Shown here: piece by piece, positions 7,057 through 42,847 of the stretch
How the letters are laid out: every line of letters begins with the position of its first letter
Position numbering within the stretch: the first letter of the stretch is position 1
Origin: an uncultured Hyphomicrobiales bacterium
Lineage (GTDB): Bacteria; Pseudomonadota; Alphaproteobacteria; Rhizobiales; Beijerinckiaceae
Length of the DNA: 45,293 bases
Assembly (NCBI GenBank): GCA_903877935.1
Contig: CAIRGA010000206.1
Coordinates: 1 to 45,293, forward strand
Direction: 5' to 3'
The notes under the pieces: model-generated
The model's input: the letters and a program-made list of their open reading frames with translations, nothing else
The model's database searches: none
What the model was told of the DNA's origin: nothing
Made by a program: the position numbers and the translations under genes

Positions 7057-7713
7057 TTACGCCGCCGCCACCGGTAGGCTAATCGGGCAGCTGACGCCTG
7101 TGCCGCCCAAACCGCAATAGCCGTTCGGATTTTTGGCGAGATATTGCTGGTGATAGGTTTCGGCAAAATAGAAGGTTTCGGCGGGGATGATCTCGGTCGT
7201 GATCGCGCTATACCCCGCTTGGGTGAGCTTTTGCTGATACATCGCTTTCGAAGCCTCGGCAGCGGCCTGCTGGGCGGCAGAATAGGTGTAGATGCCCGAG
7301 CGATAGGTCGTGCCGACATCATTGCCTTGCCGCATGCCTTGGGTCGGGTCGTGCGATTCCCAAAACAGCTTCAAAAGCTCGTCAAAGGTCACGACGGACG
7401 GATCAAACACCACAAGCACGACCTCATTATGCCCCGTGAGGCCGGTGCAGGTTTCCTCATAGGTCGGGTTGGGCGTAATACCGGCAGAATAGCCCGCGGC
7501 GGTCACAAAAACGCCCGGCATCTGCCAGAATTTGCGCTCGGCGCCCCAGAAACAGCCTAAACCGAACATCGCCGTCTCACTTCCGGCTGGATAGGGGCCT
7601 TTGAGCGGGTTTCCGTTCACAAAATGCGTCGATGCCGTCGGAAGCGGCGTCGAGCGGCCCGGCAAAGCCTCATCCCTCGTCGGCATTTGGGGTGATTTAC
7701 GGAAGCTGAACAT
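7057..7713 (-). CDS. msrA: peptide-methionine (S)-S-oxide reductase MsrA
   Basis: MsrA reduces the S form of methionine sulfoxide in proteins, repairing oxidative damage with electrons from thioredoxin. The catalytic motif is present as [13 protein letters not shown] (GCFWG, nucleophilic Cys near residue 52). The family motifs [22 protein letters not shown] and [23 protein letters not shown] follow. The C-terminus carries further cysteines in [14 protein letters not shown] that fit the resolving positions. At 218 residues it matches the longer MsrA type, with an N-terminal extension of about 45 residues and no export signal. A possible small gene follows 11 bases downstream. Confidence 0.96.
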
Positions 7714-7866
7714 GCGGATTCTCCAGTTCTGAACGAGGCGCAGACCCTATGTAAGCATGGATTGGCCCCGATGCCAGATCCCTTGTGAGCCGAAATGGTT
7801 GCAAGCCGTGCAGTTCTGTCTATAAGAGCGCAAGTTTTCCGCGGTGTGCTTAGGCGCACCAACGAC

Positions 7867-7896
7867 GGAGGGGTGGCCGAGTGGTTTAAGGCGCAC
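7867..7896 (+). pseudogene. tRNA-Ser 5' fragment (partial duplicate)
   Basis: These 30 bases are identical to the first 30 bases of the intact tRNA-Ser at 7959 (acceptor 5' strand, D arm and the start of the anticodon stem). The identity also extends 11 bases upstream, so 7856-7896 equals 7948-7988 over 41 bases. No anticodon loop, variable arm or T arm follows. Instead there is a small hairpin, GGTCGCC-TTT-GGCGACC (about 7899-7915). It is a broken copy and cannot encode a tRNA. Confidence 0.85.
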
Positions 7897-7945
7897 TAGG
7901 TCGCCTTTGGCGACCGTTATTGACTAAGGTTTCGCGTGCGCCTTA
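7887..7945. repeat. inverted repeat within the tRNA-Ser leader
   Basis: TAAGGCGCAC (7887-7896), the end of the broken tRNA copy, is the exact reverse complement of GTGCGCCTTA (7936-7945). The shorter GGTCGCC/GGCGACC hairpin lies inside. The whole segment between the two tRNA copies can therefore fold into one long stem-loop, either as a scar of the duplication event or as a structure in a long precursor. Confidence 0.7.
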
Positions 7946-7958
7946 ATGCACCAACGAC

Positions 7959-8048
7959 GGAGGGGTGGCCGAGTGGTTTAAGGCGCACGCCTGGAAAGTG
8001 TGTATACGGGAAACCGTATCGCGGGTTCGAATCCCGCCTCCTCCGCCA
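7959..8048 (+). tRNA. tRNA-Ser (anticodon GGA)
   Basis: This is a complete 90-base class II tRNA. The acceptor GGAGGGG pairs with CTCCTCC (one G-T pair), followed by discriminator G and an encoded CCA. The anticodon stem CACGC/GTGTG encloses the loop CTGGAAA with anticodon GGA at 7993-7995, which reads serine codons UCC and UCU. The long variable arm (TATACGG-GAAA-CCGTATC type) is typical of tRNA-Ser. The T stem GCGGG/CCCGC encloses TTCGAAT. Confidence 0.98.
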
Positions 8049-8077
8049 GTCTAAACGACCAACCACCTGATAACCGA

Positions 8078-8096
8078 GCTATGACAGGGACATAGC
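8078..8096 (+). terminator. weak hairpin after tRNA-Ser
   Basis: GCTATG pairs with CATAGC across a 7-base loop. CCGA before and GGG after may lengthen the stem. There is no run of T behind it, so it may be a processing or weak termination structure. Confidence 0.35.
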
Positions 8097-8150
8097 GGGT
8101 TAATAGGCTTGGCCTGCGGTTCGTCGCCCGTCTGTTGATGAGTAAAAACC

Positions 8151-9155
8151 ATGGTAGCGTTATCGATCCTTGATCTTGTGCCGGTTGTTGAAGGCAAAAC
8201 GCCTGCGGATGCGTTTGCCAATACCAGAGACCTTGCTCAACATGCAGAGCGATGGGGCTATCAGCGATATTGGGTGGCGGAGCATCACAATATGGTTGGT
8301 ATTGCGAGTGCCGCGACCTCGGTTGTGATTGGTTTTATTGCCGCGCATACATCGACAATCCGGGTCGGGGCAGGTGGCATTATGTTGCCTAACCATTCCC
8401 CTCTTATCATTGCCGAACAATTTGGGACGCTTGAATCGCTTTATCCCGGGCGTATCGATTTAGGATTAGGTCGTGCGCCGGGCACGGATCGCGCAACCTC
8501 GCAAGCGATGCGGCGCGATAGCATGGCGTCGGATCATTTCCCTGATGATGTGCTTGAATTGCAGTCCTATTTTGGACCGTCGGAGCCTGATCAAGCCATT
8601 CAAGCCGTTCCGGGTGCGGGCTTAAAAGTTCCGCTTTGGATTTTGGGTTCGAGCCTTTATGGCGCGCAATTGGCAGCGGCCTTCGGATTGCCTTATGCGT
8701 TCGCATCGCATTTTGCGCCTGACGCGCTTGACCATGCGCTCGCTCTTTATAAGGCGCAATTTAGGCCTTCAGAGCAAATGGCCAAGCCTCACGCAATGGC
8801 TGGTGTGAATGTGGTGCTGGCCGATAGCGATGCCGAAGCCAATTATCATTTCAGCTCCATTCAGCAGCGCTTCACCGATATGGTGCGGGGTAAACGAGGC
8901 TATCTGAAGCCGCCCATTGACGATATTGAGAGCTATTGGTCAAGGGAAGAAAAAATTCACGCCTCGCGCATGTTGGCTTGTTCGTTTGTCGGCTCGCCCA
9001 ATACCGTGAAACGAAAGCTTGATGCGTTTGTGGCCTCGACAGGCGTTGACGAGCTTATGGTCGCATCCGCCCTTTTTGATCATCAGGCACGCTTGCGGTC
9101 TTACGAGCTCTTGGCCGAATTGAACGAGCACGCCATACTCGGCAAGGCGGCATAG
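8151..9155 (+). CDS. LLM-class flavin-dependent monooxygenase (luciferase-like)
   Basis: This 334-residue protein is of the bacterial luciferase-like superfamily, which uses reduced FMN to oxygenate organic substrates. The start [12 protein letters not shown], then [26 protein letters not shown] and [15 protein letters not shown], are hallmark motifs of the MsnO8/YhbW-like branch. The ATG at 8151 is right before the conserved strand, so the start is credible. The substrate is unknown. It stands alone between the tRNA gene and the convergent amidohydrolase operon, and the flanking genes give no hint of substrate. Confidence 0.9.
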
Positions 9156-23509: not shown

Positions 23510-23564
23510 ATGGTCGGTGCAATCACTGGATCAAATTCAGCCGCCCTTTATCAGGCATGGCTGA
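23433..23564 (+). other. overlapping 43-codon frame with signal-like N-terminus
   Basis: ATG 23433 opens a frame reading MVLLIGLLMWGAAGGAARSY and continuing to a stop at 23562-23564, inside the first 18 codons of the giant gene but in another frame. The hydrophobic start followed by AAGGAA resembles an export signal. No good ribosome binding site precedes it. It may be chance, or a leader peptide coupled to the giant gene, or a sign that the giant gene's true start lies in this frame in other strains. Confidence 0.25.
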
Positions 23565-26500
23565 CTGGAAATCGCACCGTTACGGGGCAGGGCGGAGGTG
23601 CGCCTGCCGCACCAGACGCAACCGTATTGCTCTCCTGGCAGGCTTTGGCCAATGCCAATATGCCAACCACATTACCAACCGATATCGCCAAGCTATCCAC
23701 CGATGCGATCGCGGCTTTGCATGCTGACGTTATTAGTTCGCTGACACCGAGCCAGGTCGCGGCTTTTACGACAGCGCAGATTAGCAGCCTAAGCACGACA
23801 CAGGTGCAAGCGCTGCCCGCTACCGGTATCGGCGCTTTGAACGGGCGGCAAGCCTTAGCGATTTCGACCGATGGTATTGCCCTCTTATCCGGCGTACAGA
23901 TTTCAGGGTTCACGGCCTCAAGCTTCGGCTCCTTGTCGACCGACCAAATTCAGGCGATCAGCACGGATCAAATCTCTGGCATTTCAACCCGCCAATTGCA
24001 GGCTTTGACCAGCGCGCAAGCGCGCGCGTTAAAGACGGCGCAGATTGACAGCATTACCGCTCAACAAATCAGCGCTATTCCGGTCACCGCAATCACCGCG
24101 CTCAGCACAGGGCAAATTGTTGCGCTTGGCACGGATAGTGTCTCCGCCTTAAGTTTCAAACAGTCGAGCAGCCTTACGACCGAACAGGTTATGGCGTTGA
24201 CGACCCAAGAAATTTCGGTGCTTTCGTCGCAAACGTTGGCCTATCTTAAGACGCCGCAAGTGGCCGCGCTGACGACCCGTCAAATTAATGCCCTTAGCAC
24301 CTCGCAAATTATCGGACTATCGGGCGCGGCACTCCTGACGCTTTCGTCCGATCAAATTCAGGCCATCAAGACCGATGCGGTTAGCGCTCTAAAGGCCTCG
24401 CAAGTCACGCAATTTGGAAGTCAGCAGATCAATGCGCTGGCGACCTCACAAGTGGCAGCATTAACGACCGCTCAAGCGATCGTATTGAAGGCAACAGCAT
24501 TATCCGCCCTCTCAACCGCACAACTCGCCTCCTTATCGACAGGTGATGTTGCCGCTTTAACGCTTCGCCAAGTTATTGCCTTTACCACGACGCAATTGGC
24601 AGGCCTTACCTCTGCGGCGGTTACTGCTTTGGGCGCAGCGCAACTGTCAAGCTTCAGCACGGATCAAGTTGTTGCGCTTGGCTCGACGGCACTCTCTGAA
24701 TTATCAACGGGCCAAATTTTAGGGTTATCCGCGGCAGGCTTTGGTGCGCTAACCACGGATCAGATTAAAGCCATATCGACGCAAGATTTCGCCGCTGTTA
24801 GCTTTAGACAATTACAAGCGCTGACAACGGCACAAATACGCGTCATCTCGACGGCTCAAATTACGACGTTAAATGCTGGGCAATTGAATGTTCTGACGTC
24901 CGCGCAAACGAATGCTTTGACCGCCGGACAGGTCAGCAGTTTAACCAGCGGGCAGATTACCGGGTTAACGGTTGGCGTTATCAATAGCCTGATCGCCACG
25001 CAGATTGCAGCGGTGTCGACGACCGCTTTTGCTGCGCTGACCTTGCAACAAATTACGGGTATTCGGGCAGACCAAGCAACCGCACTTACGACCGATCAGA
25101 TTGTAGCTCTGAACGCCAATCAATTTGCGCTGCTCTCGACAGCCGATATTGCAGCGCTATCGTCGAGCCAAATTAAGGCAATCGAGACGACCGATCTTGC
25201 CGCGCTTGCGGTGAAGCAAATCCAAGCCATGTCGACGCAGCAGCTGACGCAATTGATAAATGCGCAACTGAGCGCGCTGACAGTGAGCCAAATTCGCGGG
25301 ATGGGTGGTAATCAGCTTGCCGGCTTTACGACAGCGCAGATCCCCAATTTTGCAAGCACCCAGGTTGCCGCACTCTATGGCAATCAATTTGCGTCCTTTA
25401 GCAATGACCAAATTGGAGCGCTGAATTCAACCCAGTTTTCCGCGATATCCGGCACCCAATTATCAGCACTATCGAGTTCACAAGCCGCCTCCATATCGCT
25501 AACCGATACGCAACTCTTGACGTCGGCGCAAATAACCGGATTCCGGGCGACATCGGTTCAAGGATTTCTAACAAGCCAAATTGCGCTTTTGGGTACGGAC
25601 CAATTACGATCCTTTTCCGCGGCCCAGATGGCGGCTTTCTCATCGGCGGAACTCAATGCGATTTCGACCGATCATATCTCGTCGCTAAAGGCGTCGCAAA
25701 TTGGCACCATGGGTTCAACTCAGATTTCATCGCTTGCAACGGGGCAAATTCAGGCTTTAACCACTCAACAAATCATCGCCATTTCGACCAATGCCATTTC
25801 GCAATTATCAACAACGGCGATCGCGAGCATTAGTACCGATGATTTTGCCGTTCTGACGAATGGTCAAATTTCGGCGATCACGACCGCTTCGATCAAAGCG
25901 ATTACAACCGATCAGGTGCAGGCGATATCGGCGGGGCAGGTCCGTGGCCTGACGTCGGACCAGCTTAATGTTTTGAGCAGCGATCGAATTGCCGCATTCA
26001 CCTCGAGCGCGATCAATGCGCTTTCTATTGGACAGATTAGCACCCTATCAACAACCCAAATTCGAGCCTTTACCACCGACGATATTCGCGCGCTTAATCT
26101 CACGCAGATCCATTCTTTATCGAGTGATCAACTCAGGGCATTATCAACCGATCAAATTGTTGCGGTTGCCGCGAACCAGATTGCCGGTTTCTCCGGTGAT
26201 CAAATCGGCGTTTTGACGACCCGCCAGATACCTGCCTTCGGTACAAGTCAGATTAGCGCGTTTAGCAATACGCAATTACTGGCGATGGGAACCGCTCAAA
26301 TATCGATTCTAACATCGGATCAGGCGGTAAGCTTAAGCGCTACACAGATCAATGGTTGGGCTGGTGGGCAGATAACCGCCTTATCAACGGATGCGATTGC
26401 TTCTCTTACGACCACGCAGGCTCAGGGGCTCTCGCGTCCCGCTTTGGGGGCCTTCAATACCGCGCAGGTTCAGGCCTTCCAAAGCAGCGATATCCAGGTC

Positions 26501-29500
26501 GTGGCCGCCAAGCAATTATCTGTTCTTTCGGCAGCCCAAGCTGGCGCGTTGACGACGGATCTGCTGTTGGCGCTGAACACTCAACAGCTTATCAATCTGA
26601 CATCGTCCGCCATTAGCGGCCTAACGACAGACCTTTTATCGGCCATCAGAACCAGCGACATCAGCGCGCTAACGCCATTGCAATTGCTTGGTCTTCGGAC
26701 CGGCCAGATTTCTGGACTGTTAGCGACGCAAGTGAGTGCTTTGACGTCGACCCAAATTACAAGTTTGTCGTCGGCGCAGACGCGCGCGATGACCACCGAA
26801 CAGATTGGCGCGCTTACAAGTGGACAGGTCGCGGCTTTAACAACGTCGTCGCTATCCACGCTATTGACCGCGCAGATTGCTAGCCTTTCAAGTGCAGCCG
26901 TACCGGCCTTATCAGCAAGGCAATTTGCCAAGATTACCTCGGTCCAAATTCCGGCTCTGACGACCGATCAGATTAGTGTTCTCACCACGACCCAGATTGC
27001 TGCAATAAGCGGCACGCAATCCGCCGTACTAACGACGGATCAAATTGTGGCGCTTACCACGCAACTCATGCCGGCATTGACAGCGAATGCGCTGTCCGCT
27101 CTTTCGACGGGTCAAATCGTAGCCTTCGAAGTGGCTGATTTTGCAGCCCTAACAGGCTTACAATTCAAGGCCGTCACAACTGACCAGATTTCGGCCCTTA
27201 CAACCGATCAGTTTTCGGGCCTATCGACGATTGAAATAGCCAGTATGGCTGCTTCACAGGCAACAGTTCTCCGGACAGACCAAATTGCATCCCTTACATC
27301 GGATGAGACGGTTGCGATTACCGCGAGCGCGCTTGCAACGCTATCGTCGACACAATTCAATCAATTGAGCAGTAGTGATTTTGCGGTCTTAACGACAGGC
27401 CAGATTTCGGCGCTGACTACAGTTGAGGCGGTTGGATTAAATTCGGACCAGATTAGTGCCTTTAATACCTCGCAAGTTGTGGCGCTGACGACCGTTAACC
27501 TATCGGTTCTCCCGCCTGCTAAATTAGCACTTTTATCGACCGACAATGTGGCAGCTTTAACGGCTCGCCAGATTTCCTCGCTCACATCAGCGCAGACGGC
27601 TACGCTTACCACCGATCAAGTCGTAGCCTTAACATCCGTTCAAATCGCGGCGCTGAGGACCGATCAAATTACCTCGCTGACGACCGATCAGATCGTCGCT
27701 TTGGGTACGACACAGGTTCAGGCGCTCGCCGCTAAGGAAATTTCAGCCTTTACCACGTCCCAGATTCAGGCCTTCGAAACCACTGATTTTGCTGCGATCA
27801 CGACAAAGCAAATTCAGTCGATCACGACCGATCAGGCCGCAGCTCTGACAACGGACGAGATTGTTGCGTTAACAACGGCTCAGGCGAGCGCTCTGACGAC
27901 CATTGATGTTGCTGCGCTGCTAACGGGTCAAATCGCTGCATTACAAACCGATGATCTATCCTCCCTAACGCCTAAGCAGATTAGCGCTCTATCGTCCGAT
28001 CAGATAGCGGCGCTCACGACGGATCAGGTTCCCGCTCTGACGACGTTGCAAATGGTAACATTTAATACGGCGCAGATTATTGCGCTAACGTCCGATCAGA
28101 TCATCGCCCTTAATAGCCAGCAATTGGGTGCCATTTCGGCTTCTGTTCTTCCGTCGATGCGATCGTCGCAGATTGCTGCGATTGAACCGGGTGATATTGT
28201 CGGCTTTAGTGCCAAGCAGATAGCGGCGCTGACGAATTATCAGATTATGGCGCTGACAACCGATCAGATTCCGAGTTTGGCCGTTTCCCAGATTAGCGTG
28301 TTGAATTCAACACAGGCGTCGGTTTTGAAGACGGCTCAAATTGCAGCCCTGACAACCGATCAAATTCCTGCTTTCTCGGCGGCCGATGTAACTGCGCTGA
28401 CCACAGCGCAATTGGACGCCATGACAACGGATGATTTCCAAGCGCTGACGATCCGCCAGATCGGCGCATTGACGGCGAACCAGGTCTCTCAGCTGACAAC
28501 GGATGAAATTGTTGCCCTCACAACGGCGCAAACTTTGGCCTTGTCGACCAGCAATGTCGTGGCGTTGACGACGGCCCAAATCGGTGTGTTGGGTACCGCC
28601 AATTTGTCGGCAATGGCTAACCGCCAGATCCTGTCGATGACGACGTCGCAGGTGGCTGTGTTATCTGGCGACCAAGCATCCTCGCTTGGAACGCGGCAAA
28701 TTTCTGTTTTGAGTGCTACACAAGCCAGCGTTCTTAAAACGGATGCGGTTAATGCGCTTAACGGCTCGCAAGTAGCGGCGTTCTCGGTTTCGGCGATTGC
28801 ATCGTTCCGGACCGACGAGATTGCCGCGATTACGACGACGGATGTCCCTTCGATAACCGTGAGGCAGGTAGGCGCATTGAATGCAGGCCAGATTGCTGCC
28901 TTTAGCACCGATCAGATTGTTGCGTTGAATACGACGCAGATCGCGAAACTCAGTGCGGGACAAGCGATCGGCTTGAGCACGGATCAGATGGCGGCGTTGT
29001 TGCCAGGCCAGGCGAGCGCGATAACGGTTTCAACCCTTGCTTCGCTCTCAACCGATCAATTTGTCGCCATTTCGACGCAAGATATTGCTGTATTGACGGC
29101 TAATCAAATTCAAGCGGTCAATACCCAGCAAATCGCAGCACTGACCTCCGATCAGACGGTTGCGCTAACAACCGCACAAGTGAGCTTGATCAGAGATTAT
29201 CAAGCGCCATCGTTCACGCCGTCGAATATTGCGGTCATGAGCGGATCGCAGATCGCGGCATTGATGCCGTCGGCTGTTACCTCGCTCTCGACGGCACAAC
29301 TTGTTGCCATTACAACGGATGATGTTCCGTCGATCACGACCAAGCAATTGATTGCATTGGGTGCGCCACAAATCAGCAGCCTGACGACGGATCAAATTGT
29401 CGCACTCACCACGGGGCAGGTGGTCGCGTTGCCGGGCGGACTTGTTACAGCGCTGACGACCGCGCAGATCTCCAATATGACGACCGTCGATTTGGCCGCG

Positions 29501-32500
29501 CTTAAAACCTCGCAAGTAACAGTCTTAACCACGGCGCAATTGGCGTCGATCACAACCGATCAAATTCAGGATTTGACGACAGCCCAGATTGGTGCGCTGG
29601 CAGGCTTCCAAGCCGCGGCCTTGACGACAGACCAAGTTGCCGCGCTTTTGACGAAGGAAGTTGCTGCGATTTCGGTTGGCGCTGTACCAAGCCTGACAAC
29701 GGCACAAATTATTGCCCTTGGCGATCAGAGCTTCCCGGCCCTTACAACGCGGCAAATATCGGTGTTGACGGCCTCGCAATTCCCGGCCGTTACGACCGAT
29801 CAAATCATCGCGATGCGGACGGACCAAGTCGCGGCAATTTCTCTGAGCGCATTGCCAGCCTTAGGCATCGATCAGCTGGCCGCGTTCTCAACAACCGATA
29901 TTTCGATCCTGTCGGCCAATCAGATTGGCGTTTTGACAACCACGCAGGTGGCTTCGCTCTCAACCGATGATATCGTGGCCCTTACTACGCAACAGGTAAC
30001 GGCATTGTCGATCGGACAAGCGGATGTGCTATCGACCGATCAGATTAGCACGCTCTCAACGGCACAAATTCGCGCGGTTTCTGTCGGTGCTTTGTCTTCC
30101 TTGAACGAAGATCAGACGGCAGCGATAACAACTGCTGATATTCATGTGTTGACGACGTCGCAGGCTACATCGCTCACAACGCTTCAAATTTCCGTGCTCA
30201 CTTCGGACCAAGCCGTTGCGCTGACGACACAAAATATCGCATTGATGGGCACGTCGCAAACGACGGCAATTTCAGTCACCGATATCGCGGCGCTGAAGAC
30301 AGACCAAATCGTTGCTTTGACGACATCGTCGGTAGCGGCTCTCACGCAAGACCAGATGATAGCCATCCGGACGGATCAAATTCAGGCCTTGGGTACCGGC
30401 CAGATGGCTGCTCTCACCAGCGATCAGGCGACCGTCTTGACCACCGATCAGATTGTTGCGATCACAACGGGCCAGGTCAGTGCGTTGACCACTTCGGCAT
30501 TGAGCGTCTTCTCGGCCGATCAGATTGCCGCTGTCGAAAACATCGATCTTGCAAAAATGACCACTGGTCAAATTGCATCGCTCTCGACGGTTCAGGTCGG
30601 TGCATTGCTGACGGGACAAGTAGCGTCGCTGACAACGCGCGAAATTATTACGCTCTCGACGGACCAATTGCTCGCTATGTCGGGCAATGATATCAGTGCC
30701 ATGACGACGGATCAGATCGCGGCGATTGGCACCAATCAGGTATCGGGCTTCCGCCTCGACGAGGTTTCGGCGTTCACGACGCTGCAAGCCCCAGCCTTAA
30801 AGTCGGCGACACTTGCGGCCATGAGCACCGCGCAAATTCAGGCCTTCGATCCTGAAAATATAACGCAGCTCACGACCACACAGGTATCCGCACTGACAAC
30901 GGATCAGATTGTTGCGCTGACACAGGAGCAAGTTCAGTCGCTGACAACGGGTCAGTTGAAGAATTTGGGCTCCGCTCAGATCGTTGCCTTGACGACGACC
31001 CAAATCGGCGAATTGACGGTGGATCAGGTGCCGGGTCTAACAACGACTGCGGTTGCCTTGTTGTCGAATGATCAATTGGGTGCGGTCACACCAGATGATA
31101 TGGCGGTTCTGAGTACTGGTCAGGTCGTGGCCATCACGACGTCGCAATTGGCGTCGATATCTGTCACGCAGCTTAATGCGCTGACATCGGTTCAATTTGG
31201 TGCGTTGACCAATCTCCAGATACCGGCGATTACGACGGATCGGGTTTCGGCTTTGGCAACGTCGCAAATCAACATTCTTTCCAGTGGCCAAGCCTTAGCG
31301 CTTCAGACGTCGCAGGTGGCAGCGCTCAGTGGTGATCAATTAGCCGTCCTGACGACGGCGGCGTTTGGTGCGCTCAACACGGCTCAGATTGTTGCTATGG
31401 GTCCGGCTAATGTTCCAGCTCTGACGTCCGCGCAGATCGCTGTCCTTAGCAGTGCGCAGGCGCGCGCTATGGATAATGATCAGATTGCGGCATTGACGGC
31501 CGATCAGGCGCCATCCTTGGCCACAACAACGCTATCGAACCTATTCACGACCCAGCTGGTGCAGCTGACGACGTCGGCGGTGGCCGTGCTGACAACGCAG
31601 CAAATAGCCAAGCTCACAACCGACGAGGCCGCGGCGCTTACCACGGCTCAGGTTGCGTCGTTGACGACCCAACAAATTGGGGCGCTGACGACCCGCGAAT
31701 TAGCCGCGATCAATGTCGATTCGATCCAAGCGATCGGCTCGGATCAATTGGCCGTGATTGATACAACCCATATCGCATCTCTGACAACGCTGCAGGTATC
31801 GTCGTTGACGAGCTATCAGGTTGCAAGCCTAAGCACGGCCCAGATTGCTTCGTTGACGGCTGCCCAAGTACCGACGGTGACACCGGCCGATATTACAGCC
31901 TTGTCAACCGGTCAGCTCGGCGCCTTGAAGATATCGCAAGTGACGGTTCTCACCACGGATCAAATTCTTGCGATCAATGCGCCTTCGATCGCAGCCCTTT
32001 CGACCGGCGGTATACAGGCCATGTCGACAAGCCAGATCCAAGTCCTGACGACGGATGCAATCGCCGCACTGACAACGGGACAAGTTGGCGTCTTGTCGGG
32101 TGCTAAGGTTGTTGTGTGGAGCGTTGATCAAATCGCAGCCTTCTCCGATACACAAATGGCGGCTCTGACAACGGCGGCTGTAGCTGCGCTGAGCGATGTG
32201 CAGGTTGCCGCGTTAACGACGCTTGAGGTCTCGGCCCTCACTTCGGGACAGATGGCGTCGATGGCCACGCATCAGATTGCTTCGATCACGGGCGATCAGA
32301 TCCAAGTTGTGACGCCTGCTGCGCTTGCAGCGATGAAGACGAGCCAGATAGCCGCCCTTAATGCGGATATTATGAACGTCTTGAGCCAGGATCAGATCAC
32401 GGCTCTTAAAACGTCACAGGTTGTTGCCTTGACGGCCGGACAAATTGCCTCGTTGACCACGACCCAGTTCACCGAATTCACGCCAAGCCAGTTCGCGGTG

Positions 32501-33886
32501 TTGAATATTGCCCAGTTCACCGCGCTTTCCGATGCGGATATTACGGCGATGACGGGTGATCAGGCTGCGGTGATGACAACATCGCAATTTAATACAATGA
32601 CGCCTGAAAAGATTGGTGCGTTGGCCTATGGCCAGCTAGCCGTTCTTTCGACCGCTGTGATGGGCGTGATGACGTCTGATCAACTATCCGTTATTGATCC
32701 GGCCTCAATTGCAACCCTATCGGCTTCGCAAGTTGCCGCGATCCGTCCGGCGGCCATGGCGGTACTTTCAGGCGATCAGGCAGGCTACATCAATGCGAAC
32801 CAAATTCTCAGCATGACGACGGCGCAGATCACGGCCTTGTCGAATGATGCGATTGGCGCGCTTGTGCCGGATACGGTTAGCCTGATGGGTGCGGATCTTG
32901 TCGGCGCGATCAAAGTAAGTCAGATTCCTTATGTGAGAGCCGATGCGATTGCCGCGTTTGGCCCAGATCAGATGGCTGCGATAAAAGCTAACCAGTTTGG
33001 CGCGATGACGGTTGATCAGATTGCGGCGCTCGATCCGACGCAAATTCCAAGCCTTACAACGGCAGCGATTGCGGTGTTGAGCAGCGCGCTTCTGCCATCG
33101 CTCAGCCCGGCCTCAGTTGCGTCCTTGTCGCATGATCAGGTTCAGGCCCTTGGTGGTCCGGCCGTGGCCTCGTTGACCGATGCCCAGATTGGACAGTTGG
33201 GCGATAGCCAGATTGCTGCGCTCACAACGCGTCAAATCGGTTCGCTGTCAGCTGCACAATTCGCGGTCTTCTCGGTTGATCAGGTTGCGGATTTAACCAA
33301 TGCACAATTGACCGTCATGACGACCGATCAGATTTCCGGATTTAGCCCGGAAGATGTTATGGCCCTGTCGGCAGCGCAAATTCCGGGCTTAACAGAAGCG
33401 CAGATTGGTTCGTTGTCGTCCGATCGTGTGGCCGTATTCTCCGGCCCACAACTATCGGCGATGCGAAATACCCAGCTCCAAGCCTTGCCATTGAGCGGCG
33501 TGGCGCTGTTGACGCCTGATGCGGTTGCGGCTCTTTCGAACGGACAGGTGGCGTCGCTCTCGGCTGGACAGATTGGTGCCCTTCAACCGCAGAGCCTGAC
33601 GGCATTCTCGCCAACCCAGTTCTCCGCCTTGACGCAATCGCAGATTGGCGCGTTAACGCCGGATCAAATTTCGGGTATGACCGATAGTCAGGTCAGTGCT
33701 CTAAACGAGACGCGGTTAGGCTCTATCAGCGCTACGCAGATTATCGCGTTTACGCCAAGCAGCCTTTCGGGCATGAGGGATCTTCAGTTGAGTGCTCTGC
33801 CATCGGGTGCAACCGCGTCGATAACGTCTGCGCAGAGAGCGTTGCTCTCCGATCATCAGCTCTCGATCCTCTTTCCAAACGGGTGA
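23510..33886 (+). CDS. giant octapeptide-repeat protein, 3,458 residues
   Basis: I do not recognise a characterised family. Residues 1-54 are unique, beginning MVGAITGSNSAALYQAWLTG, with a Gly/Ala/Pro linker near 27-36. Residues 55-3454 are 425 consecutive octapeptides with consensus [ST]-T-x-Q-[IVL]-x-[AS]-[LIF], and the last four residues are FPNG. I split the whole protein by eye and found no insertion or deletion that breaks the 8-residue register. I saw no cysteine, few aromatics and few Lys/Arg, so the protein should be acidic. There is no cleavable signal peptide, membrane helix, RTX motif or anchor. An in-frame stop at 23492 makes ATG 23510 the earliest start, with AGGGA 13 bases before it. 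A structural role (long solenoid, surface fibre or spacer) is inference. Confidence 0.93.
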   Translation: MVGAITGSNSAALYQAWLTGNRTVTGQGGGAPAAPDATVLLSWQALANANMPTTLPTDIAKLSTDAIAALHADVISSLTPSQVAAFTTAQISSLSTTQVQALPATGIGALNGRQALAISTDGIALLSGVQISGFTASSFGSLSTDQIQAISTDQISGISTRQLQALTSAQARALKTAQIDSITAQQISAIPVTAITALSTGQIVALGTDSVSALSFKQSSSLTTEQVMALTTQEISVLSSQTLAYLKTPQVAALTTRQINALSTSQIIGLSGAALLTLSSDQIQAIKTDAVSALKASQVTQFGSQQINALATSQVAALTTAQAIVLKATALSALSTAQLASLSTGDVAALTLRQVIAFTTTQLAGLTSAAVTALGAAQLSSFSTDQVVALGSTALSELSTGQILGLSAAGFGALTTDQIKAISTQDFAAVSFRQLQALTTAQIRVISTAQITTLNAGQLNVLTSAQTNALTAGQVSSLTSGQITGLTVGVINSLIATQIAAVSTTAFAALTLQQITGIRADQATALTTDQIVALNANQFALLSTADIAALSSSQIKAIETTDLAALAVKQIQAMSTQQLTQLINAQLSALTVSQIRGMGGNQLAGFTTAQIPNFASTQVAALYGNQFASFSNDQIGALNSTQFSAISGTQLSALSSSQAASISLTDTQLLTSAQITGFRATSVQGFLTSQIALLGTDQLRSFSAAQMAAFSSAELNAISTDHISSLKASQIGTMGSTQISSLATGQIQALTTQQIIAISTNAISQLSTTAIASISTDDFAVLTNGQISAITTASIKAITTDQVQAISAGQVRGLTSDQLNVLSSDRIAAFTSSAINALSIGQISTLSTTQIRAFTTDDIRALNLTQIHSLSSDQLRALSTDQIVAVAANQIAGFSGDQIGVLTTRQIPAFGTSQISAFSNTQLLAMGTAQISILTSDQAVSLSATQINGWAGGQITALSTDAIASLTTTQAQGLSRPALGAFNTAQVQAFQSSDIQVVAAKQLSVLSAAQAGALTTDLLLALNTQQLINLTSSAISGLTTDLLSAIRTSDISALTPLQLLGLRTGQISGLLATQVSALTSTQITSLSSAQTRAMTTEQIGALTSGQVAALTTSSLSTLLTAQIASLSSAAVPALSARQFAKITSVQIPALTTDQISVLTTTQIAAISGTQSAVLTTDQIVALTTQLMPALTANALSALSTGQIVAFEVADFAALTGLQFKAVTTDQISALTTDQFSGLSTIEIASMAASQATVLRTDQIASLTSDETVAITASALATLSSTQFNQLSSSDFAVLTTGQISALTTVEAVGLNSDQISAFNTSQVVALTTVNLSVLPPAKLALLSTDNVAALTARQISSLTSAQTATLTTDQVVALTSVQIAALRTDQITSLTTDQIVALGTTQVQALAAKEISAFTTSQIQAFETTDFAAITTKQIQSITTDQAAALTTDEIVALTTAQASALTTIDVAALLTGQIAALQTDDLSSLTPKQISALSSDQIAALTTDQVPALTTLQMVTFNTAQIIALTSDQIIALNSQQLGAISASVLPSMRSSQIAAIEPGDIVGFSAKQIAALTNYQIMALTTDQIPSLAVSQISVLNSTQASVLKTAQIAALTTDQIPAFSAADVTALTTAQLDAMTTDDFQALTIRQIGALTANQVSQLTTDEIVALTTAQTLALSTSNVVALTTAQIGVLGTANLSAMANRQILSMTTSQVAVLSGDQASSLGTRQISVLSATQASVLKTDAVNALNGSQVAAFSVSAIASFRTDEIAAITTTDVPSITVRQVGALNAGQIAAFSTDQIVALNTTQIAKLSAGQAIGLSTDQMAALLPGQASAITVSTLASLSTDQFVAISTQDIAVLTANQIQAVNTQQIAALTSDQTVALTTAQVSLIRDYQAPSFTPSNIAVMSGSQIAALMPSAVTSLSTAQLVAITTDDVPSITTKQLIALGAPQISSLTTDQIVALTTGQVVALPGGLVTALTTAQISNMTTVDLAALKTSQVTVLTTAQLASITTDQIQDLTTAQIGALAGFQAAALTTDQVAALLTKEVAAISVGAVPSLTTAQIIALGDQSFPALTTRQISVLTASQFPAVTTDQIIAMRTDQVAAISLSALPALGIDQLAAFSTTDISILSANQIGVLTTTQVASLSTDDIVALTTQQVTALSIGQADVLSTDQISTLSTAQIRAVSVGALSSLNEDQTAAITTADIHVLTTSQATSLTTLQISVLTSDQAVALTTQNIALMGTSQTTAISVTDIAALKTDQIVALTTSSVAALTQDQMIAIRTDQIQALGTGQMAALTSDQATVLTTDQIVAITTGQVSALTTSALSVFSADQIAAVENIDLAKMTTGQIASLSTVQVGALLTGQVASLTTREIITLSTDQLLAMSGNDISAMTTDQIAAIGTNQVSGFRLDEVSAFTTLQAPALKSATLAAMSTAQIQAFDPENITQLTTTQVSALTTDQIVALTQEQVQSLTTGQLKNLGSAQIVALTTTQIGELTVDQVPGLTTTAVALLSNDQLGAVTPDDMAVLSTGQVVAITTSQLASISVTQLNALTSVQFGALTNLQIPAITTDRVSALATSQINILSSGQALALQTSQVAALSGDQLAVLTTAAFGALNTAQIVAMGPANVPALTSAQIAVLSSAQARAMDNDQIAALTADQAPSLATTTLSNLFTTQLVQLTTSAVAVLTTQQIAKLTTDEAAALTTAQVASLTTQQIGALTTRELAAINVDSIQAIGSDQLAVIDTTHIASLTTLQVSSLTSYQVASLSTAQIASLTAAQVPTVTPADITALSTGQLGALKISQVTVLTTDQILAINAPSIAALSTGGIQAMSTSQIQVLTTDAIAALTTGQVGVLSGAKVVVWSVDQIAAFSDTQMAALTTAAVAALSDVQVAALTTLEVSALTSGQMASMATHQIASITGDQIQVVTPAALAAMKTSQIAALNADIMNVLSQDQITALKTSQVVALTAGQIASLTTTQFTEFTPSQFAVLNIAQFTALSDADITAMTGDQAAVMTTSQFNTMTPEKIGALAYGQLAVLSTAVMGVMTSDQLSVIDPASIATLSASQVAAIRPAAMAVLSGDQAGYINANQILSMTTAQITALSNDAIGALVPDTVSLMGADLVGAIKVSQIPYVRADAIAAFGPDQMAAIKANQFGAMTVDQIAALDPTQIPSLTTAAIAVLSSALLPSLSPASVASLSHDQVQALGGPAVASLTDAQIGQLGDSQIAALTTRQIGSLSAAQFAVFSVDQVADLTNAQLTVMTTDQISGFSPEDVMALSAAQIPGLTEAQIGSLSSDRVAVFSGPQLSAMRNTQLQALPLSGVALLTPDAVAALSNGQVASLSAGQIGALQPQSLTAFSPTQFSALTQSQIGALTPDQISGMTDSQVSALNETRLGSISATQIIAFTPSSLSGMRDLQLSALPSGATASITSAQRALLSDHQLSILFPNG
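23672..33871 (+). repeat. 425 tandem 24-bp coding units (octapeptides)
   Basis: Octad n starts at base 23672 + 24(n-1). Typical units are TTDQIVAL, STAQIQAL and TTGQVSAL. Units differ in bases and codons, so this is an old, diverged array kept at protein level and not a recent DNA expansion. Octads with Asp, Ala, Ser or Asn in place of Gln at position 4 recur at octads 20, 30, 37, 47, 57, 64, 91, 101, 118, 125, 135, 145, 155 and 162. These are steps of 7 or 10 octads or their sums. Confidence 0.93.
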
Positions 33887-42624: not shown

Positions 42625-42787
42625 TGTGAACCATAGCCGATCGCTGCCTGAAGCGACGGCAGCCCCTACACAAGGTGCGGACCCCGAATAAGAGGGACCG
42701 ATACCGTTACGCCCTGGCTGCCCATGAGGATGGCGTGGAGAGCGACCTGTCCCGTTGAAGGACGATCGACGATCTTTTTCCCGCCAT

Positions 42788-42847
42788 GACCAAGATTTGG
42801 ATGACCAAGATTTGGATGACCAAGATTTGGATGACCAAGATTTGAAT
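42788..42847. repeat. four tandem copies of a 15-bp unit
   Basis: The unit GACCAAGATTTGGAT is repeated four times, the last copy ending GAAT in place of GGAT. Each unit contains the small inverted repeat CCAA-GAT-TTGG. Read from ATG 42786 it would spell (MTKIW)3-MTKI then stop, but no ribosome binding site is present. It may be a regulatory array or a simple repeat tract. Confidence 0.85.

Follow-up and report, generated by a model that had tools for sequence, protein, structure and literature searches.

Why should an intact tRNA-Ser gene be preceded directly by a broken copy of its own 5' part? The question is raised by a 45,293-nucleotide stretch of DNA (the window, analysed at its full length), in which ARAGORN finds one tRNA gene, tRNA-Ser(GGA). 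An exact 41-base repeat at 7856-7896 and 7948-7988, 92 bases apart, had been noticed there in a sequence-only reading, and it held letter for letter (41 of 41 bases identical at an offset of 92). Because ARAGORN places tRNA-Ser(GGA) at 7959-8048, we read the first block as 11 leader bases plus tRNA nucleotides 1-30. The locus is laid out as follows.

7057-7713, minus strand: msrA (peptide methionine sulfoxide reductase), the divergent upstream neighbour (Pfam PF01625, E 1.2e-59)
7799-7826, plus strand: promoter-like TTGCAA-N16-TATAAG, 5' of the unit, from sequence inspection and alignment with G008, G004 and G010; activity predicted
7856-7896, plus strand: first 41-base block, 11 leader bases plus tRNA-Ser nucleotides 1-30; this is the broken 5' copy, with its tRNA part at 7867-7896
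7888-7896, plus strand: AAGGCGCAC, the 5' arm of stem A, whose partner in the fold of the leader alone is 7936-7944
7899-7915, plus strand: hairpin P3, GGTCGCC-TTT-GGCGACC, a perfect 7-bp stem with arms 7899-7905 and 7909-7915; relatives have many differing stems here, nearly all fully paired
7930-7951, minus strand: antisense copy of tRNA nucleotides 15-39 (local alignment)
7934-7944: antisense core GCGTGCGCCTT and, within it, GTGCGCCTT, the 3' arm of stem A
7948-7988, plus strand: second 41-base block, made of leader and the beginning of the intact tRNA
7959-8048, plus strand: intact tRNA-Ser(GGA) (ARAGORN; Rfam RF00005, 57.4 bits)

Between the two blocks, the sequence-only reading had described a small hairpin and an inverted copy of the block's end. 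Both are present, but the extent of the inverted copy (GTGCGCCTTA lies at 7936-7945) was understated, as it truly covers tRNA nucleotides 15-39: aligned with the reverse complement of those nucleotides, 7930-7951 shows 20 identities, 2 mismatches and one 3-base gap, and none of 5000 shuffles aligned as well. The 51 bases that separate the 41-base copies hold P3, a linker and the antisense from 7930, which reaches just into the second block (7951). The parts thus follow in the order sense, hairpin, antisense, leader and intact tRNA, all within the presumed tRNA leader, and this sense-antisense-sense build, with a palindromic hairpin that covaries among relatives, stands directly before an intact tRNA. 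The downstream neighbour of the tRNA is a luciferase-like monooxygenase. The upstream TTGCAA-N16-TATAAG is also kept in two species that have an empty site (alignment with G004 and G010), and the version in G008 begins with TTGCAT.

The 41-base repeat is not due to chance, because only one other exact repeat of at least this length occurs in the 45-kb window, a simple 15-base tandem array at 42786. Across the window genome, 1 of 37 distinct tRNA genes, namely tRNA-Ser(GGA), had more than 9 of its own bases repeated within 300 bp; these 37 were called by ARAGORN on the loci of 39 Rfam tRNA matches, and 6 of their 74 flanks were shorter owing to contig ends. A search of the genome with 281 bases around the unit recovered its own locus and, at two other sites, matches to the tRNA part only.

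We examined the same locus in relatives for the fragment and found that units before tRNA-Ser(GGA) recur in scattered relatives. The genus sample held 12 genomes, with the locus readable in 11, and units were present in 7 of these 11. The window, G008 and G011 have one unit each, G003 and G002 two each, and G006 two 111-base units and a remnant, while G001 has at least two antisense copies on a contig that begins inside the array. The leader is clean, without a unit, in G004, G005, G007 and G010, and the genus locus search found no tRNA-Ser(GGA) in G009. In the family, a pattern of two tRNA-Ser 5' words spaced 81-111 apart occurred in 22 of 397 genomes and 8 of 43 genera, at 27 listed places, all of which proved to be units on reading; the reversed control pattern gave 1 match. 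In one of the 22 genomes, G054, the contig breaks off within the array and shows no tRNA; such array-internal contig ends occur in at least two drafts (G001 and G054). Different unit types occur within one genus.

Ten families of the order have like units ahead of tRNA-Ser(GGA), and one further case comes from another alphaproteobacterial order; these units usually carry the resident tRNA's own 5' sequence, are 85-132 bp long and occur singly or as two in tandem. A pattern of fragment, antisense core and tRNA returned 36 contigs from a named genome collection, with tRNA-Ser(GGA) in each. Two are labelled only Alphaproteobacteria and Proteobacteria, and the rest Hyphomicrobiales/Rhizobiales or families and genera thereof; a taxonomy look-up placed Chelatococcus, Xanthobacter, Blastochloris and Rhabdaerophilum in Hyphomicrobiales, and the other named genera and families we take to belong there as well. 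Five of the 36 entries are not MAGs (Xanthobacter aminoxidans, X. tagetidis, Chelatococcus reniformis, Blastochloris sulfoviridis and Rhabdaerophilum sp. SD176), and X. tagetidis, C. reniformis and Rhabdaerophilum sp. SD176 each have two tandem pattern matches.

A covariance model search of 397 order genomes gave a match in 176, most of those listed being the tRNA itself (29-base, 31.7-33.9 bits), and full-length units in at least 13 (three in family f1, two each in f23, f32 and f43, one each in f9, f14, f21 and f36). Among 128 sequences upstream of tRNA-Ser(GGA), drawn from the 139 genomes with a match among 150 order genomes searched, the fragment was present at a score of at least 15 in 9 (two each in f1, f34 and f43, one each in f9, f21 and f22), and an antisense of at least 10 nt was found in 6 of these 9 loci compared to 2 of the 119 without a fragment. 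The class search (385 genomes) yielded five matches: the window, G012, a true unit in G1074 (L287) and two that were tRNA only. G1074 belongs to another order of the same class, and its fragment matches its own, differing tRNA-Ser(GGA). Over 50 distinct loci, the nearest fragment was equal to nucleotides 1-18 of the resident tRNA in 33 and at most one base off in 41; 41 loci had one fragment and 9 had two, with a spacing of 85-132, one spurious call apart. The second fragments of L006 and L065 have 5 mismatches, and that of L065 lies far off. The script behind these counts missed the fragments of L250, L089 and L092 (scored in other scans), called a spurious far fragment for L103 and read no tRNA in eight loci.

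The units differ in build. In the window type (f1, f36, Xanthobacteraceae), the fragment of nucleotides 1-30 is followed by P3, a linker, GCGTGCGCCTT and leader; in a longer type, delimited by eye (f9, f14, f21, f32, f34, f43 and L287), the fragment is followed by P3, a hairpin around GCGTGCGCTTATCTT or a variant of it, mostly a third hairpin, and leader. In f23 (L099, L102) the antisense is present and P3 is not clear. The hairpin around GCGTGCGCTTATCTT is partly non-tRNA sequence and, by eye, is found in f9 and f43 and in altered form in f14, f32 and f34. Since such non-tRNA parts are common to several families, we regard the element as old and not as a local accident, and the sequence of this hairpin argues for common descent. 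Fragments altered opposite the antisense core occur in L100, L101, L105 and L123/L277, where 7-10 bases of the core nevertheless still agree with the real tRNA; in L250 and L223 (f34) the core is complementary to the tRNA over only 7 and 5 nt. Furthermore, the antisense tracks the D-loop of its host above those of other hosts (p 0.002 for 13 long-type loci and p 0.01 for 28 window-type loci, kinship uncorrected).

Two other readings of the unit were tried and rejected. A promoter in each unit (TTGAC, then a -10-like word) was, on reading the units, legible in the window and a few others, not in most types. A mini-tRNA, with the fragment as 5' acceptor strand and CCCTCC or CTGTCC inside the unit, suits several units, not the window. 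In L251 (G037), the last 25 bases before the tRNA keep an antisense leader, GCGTGCGCCTTC, without a fragment; this is possibly the residue of a lost unit.

P3 changes between relatives by compensatory pairs. Over 27 script-picked stems, 225 of 243 P3 pairs were Watson-Crick; after we set aside five stems because the script had chosen another hairpin, the figure was 178 of 183 over 22 stems, with 2 G-U among the 183. As read, the P3 of the five set-aside loci is fully paired except for one mismatch in L032. Stem A is paired in 99.1% of cells in 31 aligned units, with almost no variation; its 5' arm being tRNA sequence and hence nearly invariant, the stem is uninformative as to covariation. In the MAFFT alignment A1, the covariation score lay above all 500 shuffles and the number of pairs changed on both sides was matched by 14 of 500; sliding A1 by -1 gave equally many two-sided changed pairs (4) and more cells (19 versus 15). 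RNAalifold found no pair with a kept change on both sides in the unit alignment. A1 holds 31 of 33 distinct trimmed units, two near-copies being omitted, and it misaligns P3 between two length classes; the unit set skipped five G006 and G011 entries without AAGGCGC, and 8 of the 36 named-collection loci yielded no unit because their first fragment departs from the search word.

We consider it probable (roughly 60%) that the 92-base unit at 7856-7947 is one unit of an old, structured and often lost leader element of tRNA-Ser(GGA), of the tandem-inversion-duplication type, which folds into its own hairpin and would be transcribed and cut off by RNase P. On this leader-element reading, the unit is likely transcribed from the upstream promoter as part of the pre-tRNA. 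The fragment AAGGCGCAC and the antisense GTGCGCCTT would pair, enclosing P3, before the real tRNA is synthesised, and we propose that the decoy half would therefore be locked away; RNase P would then cut at the true 5' end of the tRNA and release the leader.

Predicted folding agrees with part of this scheme. A long stem had been suggested as a possibility, and the window leader folded alone does pair the fragment with the antisense, as a prediction. The 110 bases before the tRNA are also more structured than their own dinucleotide shuffles where units are present (median z -2.30 in 39 unit loci versus -0.41 in 106 unit-free loci, p 3e-12). The companion suggestion, that the precursor might be processed wrongly, found little backing in the models, since predicted pairing between leader and tRNA hardly exceeds that of unit-free leaders: the median gain from cross-pairing was 4.9 kcal/mol with units and 3.3 without (p 0.04), the number of cross pairs did not differ (p 0.74), and at least 15 cross pairs were predicted for 20 of 39 unit loci and 42 of 106 unit-free ones. 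For the window precursor the best fold is chimeric (-96.3 kcal/mol versus -90.1 for leader and tRNA folded separately). The probability of the true acceptor stem was below 0.1 in 17 of 30 precursors, and therefore the energy model alone does not show the decoy to be harmless; this probability depends on the leader length supplied, as in L042, where it was 0.02 and yet the acceptor stem forms in another fold.

These folds bear on a switch in tRNA maturation, in which the antisense would pair either with the decoy half, leaving the tRNA free to fold, or with the real 5' half; under the second pairing, the decoy and the 3' half of the tRNA would together form a chimeric cloverleaf. If true, the output of tRNA-Ser(GGA) would be set by the winning pairing, a riboswitch-like control on a tRNA and not on a message. 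The models yield folds with the antisense on the real 5' half for the window and other loci, but with no clear excess over unit-free loci. Because unit-free leaders cross-pair too, folding by itself is not a discriminating criterion, and we rejected the notion that the energies demonstrate a switch, which we judge improbable. We suggest only tentatively that the leader hairpin has been retained since it tunes the folding or maturation of tRNA-Ser(GGA). Retention across families and strong structure speak for usefulness; patchiness and nearly pure Watson-Crick palindromes, which template switching also makes, speak for debris. The patchiness, including close sisters that differ, is odd for something useful, and template-switch correction explains a nearly pure Watson-Crick P3 as well as RNA selection does.

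The layout of the unit hints at how it arose. Tandem inversion duplication was reportedly described by Kugelberg in 2010. The window has the corresponding arrangement, with antisense of nucleotides 15-39 between two sense copies of nucleotides 1-30, and a snap-back palindrome, P3, marks the first junction; in the window type the second one is harder to make out. An ancient tandem inversion duplication may thus have copied the 5' part of the tRNA, in both senses, into its own leader. Slippage, as proposed earlier, fits insofar as the layout suggests template switching or tandem inversion duplication and the tandem units suggest repeat recombination, but the shared non-tRNA parts make the event old and not local. 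Once present, the 41-base repeats would allow recombination and conversion that keep the copies alike, multiply units or delete them cleanly, which would account for units in tandem, for the agreement of fragments with the resident tRNA, and for empty sites and patchiness. When the window and G008 were aligned with G004 and G010, the latter showed an exact empty site, as direct-repeat recombination would leave. On a tree of msrA from 39 loci (25 with a unit and 14 without), presence of the unit required at least 10 changes, 4 of them forced by well supported branches, and showed no significant clustering (as few changes in 80 of 500 shuffles). The tree counts L013 as without a unit (score 12.5, cut-off 14), though a degenerate unit is readable there, and it says only that presence is scattered, because the sample was chosen for units.

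Comparison with known systems places the unit near other tRNA-borne repeats. The rtT repeats after E. coli tyrT are tandem, carry the 3' end of tRNA-Tyr, and lie downstream in the tRNA transcript. The likeness lies in tandem repeats with a piece of the neighbouring tRNA, within what is here probably the tRNA transcript; our unit differs in holding the 5' end of tRNA-Ser, upstream, plus an antisense copy, and it has neither the 3' end nor the downstream position. In its way of working, the unit would by analogy come closest to the rtT kind of tRNA-borne repeat, though it sits at the opposite end of the gene and includes an antisense copy. With tandem inversion duplication and quasipalindrome template switching it shares the sense-antisense-sense order and the palindrome at the first turn. 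It is far smaller than tandem inversion duplications usually are, is kept before the same tRNA over an order, and has an interior that covaries. The 3' external transcribed spacer of glyW-cysT-leuZ pairs with RyhB (PMC6191717); it resembles the leader as a spacer cut from a tRNA precursor, the cutting being presumptive in our case, with a possible role of its own. That spacer lies on the 3' side and is not known to contain a tRNA copy; its pairing with RyhB is demonstrated, and a comparable role of the tRNA-Ser leader would be hypothetical. When window positions 7600-8300 and 16 loci were compared with Rfam 15, only RF00005 (tRNA) reached the gathering cut-off, and a literature search, mainly of open papers, found nothing on a tRNA-Ser(GGA) leader element among the matches listed. 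One study set its tRNA start sites aside (PMC9320726).

The closest competitor of the leader-element reading is DNA-level debris: a tandem inversion duplication made by template switching, whose RNA does nothing, with P3 kept perfect by template switching and units copied and deleted by repeat recombination. This account has its anatomy in common with the leader-element reading, and the odds of the two overlap; we regard it as a lesser, though substantial, possibility. It is favoured by the almost pure Watson-Crick palindromes (2 G-U in 183 kept pairs), by patchy presence and clean loss, by differing unit types inside one genus, and by another serine isoacceptor in G006, which is likewise preceded by leader repeats and a broken copy of its 5' part. 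Template switching is also described as making imperfect inverted repeats more perfect (PMC7202029, PMC8604942). The partly non-tRNA hairpin that is common, by eye, to several families and the antisense core kept where the fragment has changed suggest retention instead, and the structure is strong beyond dinucleotide composition. If the RNA acted, it could also do so in trans, the leader freed by RNase P acting on other RNAs by analogy with the glyW-cysT-leuZ 3' spacer, a precedent from E. coli (PMC6191717). In favour of this, the leader is compact, structured and probably co-transcribed; however, its loop and linker sequences diverge widely between families and the loci scanned matched no known sRNA family at cut-off, and we think this role unlikely.

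A past integration into tRNA-Ser, with the 5' part restored by the element, had been raised from the sequence as well. Genes for tRNAs are common integration sites, the tandem units and exact target copies resemble att repeats, and contig L290 carries a serine recombinase gene roughly 0.9 kb beyond the 3' end of the tRNA. That recombinase is, however, on the other (3') side of the tRNA; the units are 85-132 bp long, and the 51 bases between the window copies contain no gene, recombinase or element. The same tRNA is concerned across the order, a motif scan places msrA upstream in 28 of the 45 unit loci whose upstream sequence extends for at least 1000 nt, sisters have empty sites, and the unit interior covaries. 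By eye, no recombinase was seen among the listed window ORFs. A pattern search of a plasmid collection returned no unit, its one match being a tRNA read as SeC, and an exact-pattern search of a viral collection returned one contig, L290, which has the host msrA-unit-tRNA locus and, beyond msrA, an ORF that by eye is like the polA of the window. We therefore consider a mobile-element scar very improbable. Least credible of all is an assembly error in the window contig: its genome is a 226-contig assembly, but a like unit with different letters stands in G008, and units occur in separately assembled named genomes, isolates included.

A mirrored, self-pairing 5' copy in the leader, found ahead of one and the same tRNA in many families of an order, offers a test of whether tRNA leaders regulate, and it lends itself equally to asking what lets sense-antisense-sense rearrangements survive. 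Should the element prove functional, it would represent a cis-element of a new class acting on a tRNA; should it not, the lesson would be that RNA covariation can be imitated for long periods by template switching together with repeat conversion, which is a warning for RNA-motif discovery.

Several minor observations accompany these results. In a sister species, L018 (G006:C19, about 1330-1590) contains tRNA-Ser(UGA); roughly 152 bases ahead of this gene stands a broken copy of its 5' part, and there are leader repeats of the GTGTTCCGCGGTATGGACAAGAGACGC type, in each of which the leader end is joined to the first tRNA bases. Upstream of tRNA-Ser(GCU), a third serine isoacceptor, L021 (G011:C122) has repeats of about 22 bases that begin with GCGCCGCGGCATGAAAA. 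The viral-collection contig L290 encodes, at 316-2108, a serine recombinase (Resolvase and Recombinase domains) and a DUF2924 protein 3' of tRNA-Ser(GGA), and its unit looks the same as that of G008. The tRNA read as SeC (anticodon tca, ARAGORN) lies at 1503-1592 of L291, a Pelagibacterium sp. H642 plasmid typed as non-mobilizable, and has a serine-tRNA-like 5' part. Elsewhere in the window, a 3458-residue ORF (23510-33886, plus strand) consists nearly entirely of repeats of the type ALTTDQIAALTTAQ, with 24-base DNA repeats at 27169 and 28225. The exact 15-base tandem array at 42786-42844 comprises 3.9 copies of ATGACCAAGATTTGG, with stop codons nearby in the translated frame, and sits between a transporter-permease-like ORF and a GroEL-like ORF (names from translations).
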